From Fodinibius salinus (GTDB taxonomy: Bacteria > Bacteroidota > Rhodothermia > Balneolales > Balneolaceae), in contig NZ_VNHY01000002.1 of assembly GCF_008124865.1 (NCBI RefSeq), positions 186,001 through 250,000 of the forward strand: a DNA stretch of 64,000 nt. Direction: 5' to 3'. The position numbers were made by a program, and so were the translations under genes. Shown piece by piece: positions 10,893 through 18,362 of the stretch (its first letter is position 1; each line of letters starts with the position of its first letter). The notes below the pieces were generated by a model. That model had not been told where the DNA came from. It ran no database searches and saw only the letters and a program-made list of their open reading frames with translations.

Positions 10893-12797
10893 ATGTCTGA
10901 AAATTACCGATCTTTAACACGCACATACCGGCCGCGAACGTTCGATGATATTGTTTCGCAGCAACACGTCAGCAGTACATTAAAAAATGCTATCCAAAAA
11001 AATCGGCTGGCACATGCGTATATGTTTTGTGGTCCGCGGGGTGTGGGCAAAACCACTATGGCCCGCGTGTTGGCCCGTACGGTAAACAGTATTGACAAAG
11101 AAGTAGATGGGGAATCGCTCAACCAAACGCTGAATGTAATTGAGATTGATGCTGCCTCAAATAACAAGGTGGATGACATCCGCGACCTGCGTGAAAAGGT
11201 ACGGGTACCACCACAGAACGGTCGGTATAAGATTTATATCATCGATGAGGTACACATGCTCAGCAAGTCGGCCTTTAACGCTCTGCTGAAAACACTGGAA
11301 GAACCCCCCGATCACGTTATCTTCATTTTTGCTACCACCGAACCGCACAAGGTACTGCCTACTATCTTGTCACGTGTTCAGCGGTTTGATTTTAAGCGCA
11401 TCAGTATTGACGAGATTGTAGATCGGCTCAACAATGTAGCCGAAGATCAGGGAATCCGTATTGATGAAGAATCACTGCATGTTATTGCTAAAAAAGCCGA
11501 TGGCGCCCTGCGCGATGCGCTCGGACTGATGGACCAGGCTATTGCTTTTTGCGGTAGCGATATTCAGCACGAAGAACTGCTGCGCGCTTTGAACGTGGTT
11601 AGTACCGAACGGATGTTTGATTTTATGGAAGCCGTCAAAACAAAAAACGCCGAAAAGGGACTTAACCTAATCAATGAGCTGTTGCAAGAAGGCTATGACA
11701 TCCAGGAATATTTAGTGGGATTAACTGAACACCTGCGCAATCTATATGTTGCCGCCAGCTCAGCCAAGATGCATTTGGTAGAAGCGTCCCCGGATAACAA
11801 AAAACGCTATAAAAAATCGGCCGAGGACTTTTCGGAAGATGACCTTATGCGAATGCTGCATATTGTAAGTGAGGCCCAATATAAGCTTAAAGAAGCACAG
11901 CAGCCTAAAATTCAGTTTGAGATTACGCTCTTGAAACTCATCCACATGGAGCGAACGGAAAATCTTAACAAACTACTGAAGCAACTTGAAGACTTAAAAA
12001 AAAAGAGCGGCAAACGGCAAAAGCTGACTAGTAGTTCAGAAGAAAACACAGAATCTAATTTCAAGACAAAATCTACAAACGGGCGACAGAGCGAAGAGGA
12101 CATACAGCAAAAAAGCAGGGAATCCATCAAACAACAGGCCGATACCCAAAAGGACGAACCTGCCAAAACAGAAAACACTGGTAAGAAACAAGTATCTGCA
12201 GAATCTGACGATAAAACTTACGATTCCTCTTCAACCAATGGGAAGGACAATGTAACAGATCACGAAGAAACCGAAGCGGGAAAAGAGAACGAAGACTTCA
12301 CCAATTTATTTGGCAAATCGTCTCTTGGCAAATCCCCCTCTTCATCACCAAAAGCAACTACGCAGACAAAGTCCAAGAAGCCACAAACAAAAACAAAGTC
12401 ACCCAGCAAAGCACCCAAGGATATTTCGCTGGAAGAAATCAACAGTCAGTGGGAAGATTATCTCGAAGAATTACGTCACCATGTGCCGCAGATGTTGTAT
12501 TTTCAGATGCAGCGTGTTGACCCGGTTGAGCTAAAAAACGGAGAGCTTATGCTGCGCTGTAATGATGATTTTGCAAAGAAAATTGTAGCTGAGAATGATC
12601 GACGGCTCAGCAAACTGCTGGAGGATGAAATTGGGGCTTTTCTAAGCTTTAATTGTACTGTGCGCCAAAAAGATAACGATACGGAAAAGTCGATGAGTCC
12701 CTATGAACGGTTTAAGAATTTACAGAAACGCGACCCGAAAATTAAAAAGCTCGTTGAACTTTTTGGAGCTGAACTTGATTATAATTTGAATCAGTAA
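10893..12797 (+). CDS. dnaX: DNA polymerase III subunits gamma/tau (DnaX)
   Basis: The clamp-loader ATPase and replisome organiser. The 634-residue product has Walker A GPRGVGKTT (about residue 47), IDEVHMLS as Walker B, and TTEPHKVLPTILSR with the arginine-finger region. The zinc module between Walker A and the ELDAASNN-type motif has no cysteines, as also happens in other Bacteroidota-type DnaX proteins. Domain III ends near residue 365. There follows a Ser/Thr/Lys-rich linker and then a conserved C-terminal tau domain from about residue 510. The junction carries a nine-A slippery run (separate entry), which suggests that a shorter gamma form is also made. ybaB and recR follow, the common dnaX-ybaB-recR order. 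Confidence 0.97.
   Translation: MSENYRSLTRTYRPRTFDDIVSQQHVSSTLKNAIQKNRLAHAYMFCGPRGVGKTTMARVLARTVNSIDKEVDGESLNQTLNVIEIDAASNNKVDDIRDLREKVRVPPQNGRYKIYIIDEVHMLSKSAFNALLKTLEEPPDHVIFIFATTEPHKVLPTILSRVQRFDFKRISIDEIVDRLNNVAEDQGIRIDEESLHVIAKKADGALRDALGLMDQAIAFCGSDIQHEELLRALNVVSTERMFDFMEAVKTKNAEKGLNLINELLQEGYDIQEYLVGLTEHLRNLYVAASSAKMHLVEASPDNKKRYKKSAEDFSEDDLMRMLHIVSEAQYKLKEAQQPKIQFEITLLKLIHMERTENLNKLLKQLEDLKKKSGKRQKLTSSSEENTESNFKTKSTNGRQSEEDIQQKSRESIKQQADTQKDEPAKTENTGKKQVSAESDDKTYDSSSTNGKDNVTDHEETEAGKENEDFTNLFGKSSLGKSPSSSPKATTQTKSKKPQTKTKSPSKAPKDISLEEINSQWEDYLEELRHHVPQMLYFQMQRVDPVELKNGELMLRCNDDFAKKIVAENDRRLSKLLEDEIGAFLSFNCTVRQKDNDTEKSMSPYERFKNLQKRDPKIKKLVELFGAELDYNLNQ
11996..12034 (+). promoter_or_regulatory. 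Candidate dnaX frameshift or slippage site (A9G)
   Basis: Nine A residues at 11996-12004 are followed by G, in phase to give the heptamer A AAA AAG with AAA and AAG as zero-frame codons 370 and 371. A -1 shift adds eight residues (ERQTAKAD) and reaches tandem TAG TAG stops at 12029-12034. A +1 shift stops at TGA 12025-12027. A weak stem (CTGACT pairing with AGTTCAG through one bulge) lies 12025-12040. The position, just after domain III, is where E. coli and Thermus make gamma. The predicted gamma is about 379 residues. Confidence 0.65.
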
Positions 12798-12924: not shown

Positions 12925-13269
12925 ATGGATCAAAATATGGCAGATATGTTCGGTAAATTTTCCGAACTGCAAGAAAAAATGAAGGAAGCAAAAAGCGAAC
13001 TCTCTAAGCTTGAAGTTGAAGCTGAAGCCGGCGGCGGAATGGTTAAAGTAAAAGCCAACGGACAGCGTAAAGTTTTGAGTATTACACTCGATGAAGATGT
13101 CATCGATCCAGATGATGCAGAGATGATGGAAGACCTGGTCGTAGCCGGCGTTAATAAAGCGCTCGACAAAGCTGAAGAAGCCGCCCAAGAACGCATGCAA
13201 GAAACCTATAAGGATATGATGCCCGGCGGCGGTATTCCCGGCATGGACATGAGTAAGCTGGGACTTTAA
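12925..13269 (+). CDS. Nucleoid-associated protein, YbaB/EbfC family
   Basis: A 114-residue protein with the YbaB/EbfC layout: an N-terminal helix (MADMFGKFSELQEKMKEAK), a central beta-sheet with GGGMVKVKANGQRKVLSI, and a C-terminal helix. A Met/Gly-rich tail (GGGIPGMDMSKLGL) follows. Family members are small DNA-binding dimers usually encoded between dnaX and recR, exactly as here. The ATG at 12925 fits the family N-terminus. Confidence 0.95.
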   Translation: MDQNMADMFGKFSELQEKMKEAKSELSKLEVEAEAGGGMVKVKANGQRKVLSITLDEDVIDPDDAEMMEDLVVAGVNKALDKAEEAAQERMQETYKDMMPGGGIPGMDMSKLGL

Positions 13270-18259: not shown

Positions 18260-18362
18260 CACACTTTAAGGTAGAAAACTGGAACCGAATTATCATTTTT
18301 TTTTGCAGGACGTGAGATGCGTGACGACCGTTGCCAAACATTTCACATCCCCCTCTATATTG

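Follow-up and report, generated by a model that had tools for sequence, protein, structure and literature searches.

One gene, dnaX, very probably makes both the tau and the gamma proteins of DNA polymerase III in Fodinibius salinus, as judged by sequence comparison. We predict, with a probability of about three in four, that a run of nine A residues (A9) within this gene is a programmed transcriptional slippage site of the type found in Thermus. The gene is located in the stretch of DNA that was analyzed, which is 64,000 nucleotides long (contig NZ_VNHY01000002.1, positions 186,001 to 250,000 of the forward strand) and is referred to here as the window. The features of interest, in window coordinates, are as follows.

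10893–12797, plus strand: dnaX, DNA polymerase III gamma/tau, 634 amino acids (tau, zero frame); TIGR02397 dnaX_nterm, E=1.5e-121
11589–11984, plus strand: DnaX domain III, residues 233–364, the last domain common to gamma and tau; PF12169, E=9.3e-16
11996–12004, plus strand: the A9 run, proposed slippage site, which reads TTA AAA AAA AAG AGC with its flanks (codons 368–372)
12006–12794, plus strand: the part found only in tau, a variable linker and the C-terminal domain
12025–12027, plus strand: TGA in the +1 frame, predicted end of a 377-residue gamma (A8 transcript or +1 shift)
12029–12034, plus strand: TAG TAG in the −1 frame, predicted end of a 379-residue gamma (A10 transcript or −1 shift)
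12925–13269, plus strand: ybaB/ebfC, the gene after dnaX; PF02575
13340–13948, plus strand: recR, the gene after ybaB/ebfC; PF21176, PF13662, PF21175

The gene order is dnaX-ybaB-recR, and dnaX is one open reading frame of 634 codons rather than the two-frame (inverted) layout. The original prediction placed nine A residues and a G directly after domain III, and both the coordinates and the reading are correct. The PF12169 match ends at residue 364, four codons upstream of the run, and the base directly 3' of the run is G (position 12005). Both A_AAA_AAG and A_AAA_AAA are in phase within it. An extra A or a −1 shift leads from KKK into ERQTAKAD, eight codons that are followed by TAG TAG. The loss of one A or a +1 shift leads from LKK into RAANGKS, seven codons that are followed by TGA. 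Both of these terminations had been predicted and were confirmed. An A9 run is rare in this genome; a pattern search of both strands of the whole 2.86 Mb gave 12 matches. The only other A9 in the window is at 18296–18304 on the minus strand (T9 on the plus strand) and lies under no long open reading frame.

In the proposed mechanism, RNA polymerase would yield dnaX transcripts in which the number of A residues at 11996–12004 varies. Transcripts with nine A residues (or 9+3n) would encode tau with 634 residues. One extra A would give the 379-residue gamma with the tail ERQTAKAD, and one A too few would give the 377-residue gamma with the tail RAANGKS. We infer that the slipping agent is the polymerase rather than the ribosome. 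Gamma and tau are presumably both present in useful amounts.

The strongest evidence comes from the window's family, which includes Balneola. Of the 58 genomes sampled from this family, nearly all yielded a DnaX, and a class-wide draw supplied more members. The named record L066, a duplicate of a family member around the site, places Balneola in the family. The original prediction had named loss of the run or of its phase in close relatives as the result that would refute it. Instead, a run of at least nine A residues is kept at the same codon and in the same phase in 66 of 73 distinct genomes. Most of these have exactly nine: the 66 comprise 57 with A9, 7 with A10, and two partial genes that were placed separately (L064 and L065). 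The compared genomes are related and such counts are not independent, and genus means were used to lessen this effect. There are seven exceptions, namely L061 and six genomes of genus g5, and four of the seven carry an A9 or A10 at 26–43 codons downstream of the usual site. In genus g5 (L053, L055, L056, L058, L059, and L060), the canonical A9 is gone, and most members have an A8 to A9 further downstream, as if the site had been relocated.

In the family alignment, the nine A columns are invariant between genera. The columns 3' of the run are soon variable, and conservation of the dnaX sequence drops within about 20 nucleotides. The codon before the run is TTA or GTA. In the family's dnaX genes, AAA accounts for 67 percent of lysine codons and TTA for only 14.5 percent of leucine codons; the steady pattern TTA/GTA AAA AAA AA[CG] is thus not a matter of codon preference. 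Only two other A9 runs were found in 137 kb of the family's dnaX genes. A lysine motif is absent from this place in f2, f4, and f5, which are sister families, and in the class's remaining families, so the run is not a conserved feature of the protein. At the equivalent place, most members of f2, f4, and f5 and of the Rhodothermales-like families lack a run; the site is therefore not universal in the class. Its conservation across the family shows that it is not there by chance.

The base that follows the run is less constant. At 65 family sites it is C in 38, G in 23, and T in 4; the window's genus keeps AAG, whereas most genera have AAC. The run thus retains nine or more A residues while the next base changes. 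The original prediction described an A AAA AAG slippery site. This heptamer is indeed in phase in the window, but because the following base varies among C, T, and G, it is not conserved as a heptamer. The conserved element is the A9 run.

Stop codons lie close to the run in both shifted frames. Averaged over 17 genera, the −1 stop comes after 2.0 codons, compared with 11.0 at random linker positions in the same genes. The +1 stop comes after 6.8 codons, compared with 25.1. In neither frame did any of 2000 control draws reach a value as low as that observed, and the outcome was unchanged when single genomes were used as units instead of genera. The −1 stops are on average nearer than the +1 stops. 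The genera reach these stops by different routes (TCC GGT AAC, TCT AAA, TTT AGG, and CTC AGT AAC), a sign that the stop, rather than the amino acids, is under selection. Only slipping in both directions needs close stops in both frames. Taken with the conserved run, the pattern gives good support to the predicted pair of a gamma of about 379 residues and a tau of 634. An A9 that is fixed throughout the family, with both shifted frames closed soon after it, indicates that these bacteria keep a truncated DnaX under selection. The importance of gamma in cells was long a matter of dispute.

Two elements that could stimulate a ribosomal shift were considered. An upstream Shine-Dalgarno sequence was ruled out as a stimulator: a 5-base motif of this kind occurs upstream of the run in 16 of 62 family members and is not conserved, and none is found directly 5' of the run in the window. 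A hairpin downstream of the run is not conserved either (family mean z of −0.54 against −0.27 for controls). The 80 nucleotides downstream of the window's run fold no better than shuffled sequences (z = +1.07), and the weak stem noted in the original prediction is not a supported structure. The hairpin as a stimulator thus gave no signal. As the heptamer, the Shine-Dalgarno motif, and the hairpin all lack conservation, slippage by the polymerase is favored.

The main alternative is −1 ribosomal frameshifting as in E. coli, in which tandem tRNA-Lys would slip on A_AAA_AAG or A_AAA_AAA and gamma would end at the TAG at 12029. We consider this unlikely, although A_AAA_AAG is in phase in the window, the nearest stops are in the −1 frame, and a single lysine tRNA is present. 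In E. coli, the shift occurs far more readily on A_AAA_AAG than on A_AAA_AAC or A_AAA_AAA (PMC5009743), and a ribosomal site would therefore be expected to retain the G; C or T takes its place at 42 of 65 family sites. The Shine-Dalgarno motif and the stem are not conserved. At least nine A residues are kept even though six to seven would be enough, and the close +1 stops are left unexplained. In E. coli dnaX, our single control, the −1 frame closes after 1 codon and the +1 frame only after 12. The original prediction had leaned slightly toward transcriptional slippage. This preference can be strengthened, since neither close +1 stops nor a strict run length is needed for −1 frameshifting.

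The lysine tRNA was also considered as a discriminator. Of the 38 tRNA genes over the cut-off in this genome, which is 98.5 percent complete, tRNA-Lys(UUU) is the only one for lysine. This is the situation in E. coli; it would favor ribosomal slipping on AAA/AAG and would count against polymerase slippage. Some ribosomal slippage may occur for this reason, but the single tRNA-Lys(UUU) does not decide between polymerase and ribosome. The phase of the run was dropped as a discriminator because every A9 contains A_AAA_AAA in phase, and ribosomes could thus slip on any such run.

Less likely still is a mixed mechanism, in which slipping of RNA polymerase largely determines the ratio, and a ribosomal −1 shift adds to it where A_AAA_AAG is kept. 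The AAG after the run in the window's genus, compared with AAC in most genera, and the presence of tRNA-Lys(UUU) alone are consistent with this. No stimulators were found, however, and AAG alone may reflect a simple choice of lysine codon. A functionless, chance poly-lysine stretch is highly improbable: AAA is the common lysine codon and the linker is rich in K and E, but the A9 is invariant and preceded by TTA or GTA, other A9 runs are nearly absent from the same genes (2 in 137 kb), stops are enriched in both shifted frames, and f2, f4, f5, and the class's other families have no lysine motif there.

The proposed slippage by the polymerase has a close counterpart in Thermus thermophilus dnaX, in which transcriptional slippage on A9 yields gamma as a truncated product (PMC1088944, PMC5009743). 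The two genes share a tau encoded in one reading frame, a nine-A run, and close stops in both other frames. The window's site belongs with the Thermus type by its conserved run of about nine or more A residues at the gamma/tau boundary, its close stops in both frames, and a putative mechanism with no need for ribosomal stimulators. The Thermus type is further marked by mRNA that varies in its number of A residues and by a gamma to tau ratio of about 1:1. There are also differences. The run is about 58 percent of the way through the gene here and seven-eighths of the way in Thermus. Thermus has two lysine tRNAs, which a review ties to its use of slippage (PMC5009743), unlike the single tRNA-Lys(UUU) here, and slippage in Fodinibius is a prediction from sequence. 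E. coli dnaX makes the same products and also has A_AAA_AAG in phase and a single tRNA-Lys(UUU). It has A6, a Shine-Dalgarno sequence, and a stem-loop, whereas the window has A9 and a close +1 stop without either of these elements. In the two-frame (inverted) dnaX of Chlorobium and others, with A10, slippage or transcriptional realignment was suggested by Antonov et al. in 2013 (PMC3711429). A homopolymer A run is likewise at the gamma/tau boundary in those genes. Their zero frame encodes gamma, and a shift is required for tau, in contrast to the window, where the zero frame encodes tau.

A wider sample of 79 further DnaX loci, mostly from Bacteroidota, was compared. Runs of A9 to A11 are at or near the boundary in 56 of them (42 A10, 10 A9, and 4 A11), in all three codon phases. 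Tau is in the zero frame in 40 of the 56, in the −1 frame in 15 (less certainly for L137, whose contig is short), and in the +1 frame in a single locus. The two frames without tau close quickly, with median distances to the stop of 1 and 4 codons. The inverted layout, with tau in a shifted frame, occurs in 16 of the 79 loci. The one +1 case (L095) is a Flavobacteriales dnaX with A10 and gamma in the zero frame. A swapped layout is also present in genus g21 of the window's own family (L062 and L063): an A10 is followed by GAT TAA in the zero frame, and tau is in the −1 frame, which stays open for 186–218 codons. These genomes are small (1.5 Mb). A FastTree tree of 155 DnaX N-terminal regions requires at least 14 changes of arrangement by parsimony, 6 of which are forced by well-supported branches.

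These comparisons lead us to favor, with some caution, a general picture for Bacteroidota in which the gamma/tau pair is widely kept and its recoding is freely exchanged. Bidirectional slippage on A9 to A11 would operate with tau in the zero, −1, or +1 frame, the default product would have been swapped repeatedly, and UAG readthrough would have replaced slippage in one Bacteroidales family. The window's family would represent a slippage site frozen at A9. The swapped layout has already been described (PMC3711429), and the window's site belongs to a known type. As far as the literature found shows, the frozen A9 of the family and the number of swaps are additions to the work of Antonov et al. 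The novelty lies in the wider exchange of recoding routes, above all in the UAG version. The window's family offers natural variants of the site, with A9 or A10 and with G, C, or T as the next base, by which slippage of the polymerase can be told apart from a ribosomal frameshift. Products of this kind escape annotation pipelines, which would report the swapped versions as broken genes.

The UAG version was found in three uncultured gut or rumen Bacteroidales. These have no A run; a gamma-length reading frame ends in TAG, and the tau part continues in the same frame. The in-frame TAG at the gamma/tau boundary is located as follows.

L131, 3596–3598
L070, 2788
L092, 3599

These three loci form one supported branch in the DnaX tree. 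From the family of L131, 149 genomes were drawn and DnaX was found in 142. In an alignment that spans the boundary, most of the best matches have one TAG. A pattern search for the UAG motif in this family gave 11 matches; the match in L305 is not at a dnaX boundary and was rejected. The layout is also present in most of L314–L383, L388–L391, and L403, and with the added loci it was found in 73 distinct dnaX genes.

The codons after the UAG are strongly conserved in meaning. Isoleucine follows in 73 of 73 genes (ATT 46, ATA 27), then alanine in 73 of 73 and arginine in 72 of 73 (AGA 52, AGG 20). This synonymous variation indicates that the stretch is translated in the zero frame. The true end of tau in the 73 genes is TGA in 43, TAA in 16, and TAG in 14. 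Because UAG also serves as a normal terminator in these genes, the genetic code has not been reassigned. In the L131 family, no gene was seen in which UAA or UGA stood at the boundary and tau followed in frame. Members of this family that lack the stop (L329, L332, L333, and L339) have one unbroken homologous reading frame. A conserved hairpin after the UAG was too weak to claim (mean z of −0.50 against 0.01 for controls).

The likeliest explanation is programmed readthrough of the UAG, which would yield tau, while termination there would give gamma. The chief competing explanation is that a separate tau fragment arises by internal initiation. We found no published report of stop readthrough in dnaX in the literature searched. 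If confirmed, the UAG version of gut Bacteroidales would be a further, apparently undescribed route to the same protein pair. In four relatives of this group (L384–L387), the boundary reads AGG CNT AGC TAG and tau continues in the +1 frame, which suggests a +1 frameshift at a slow UAG.
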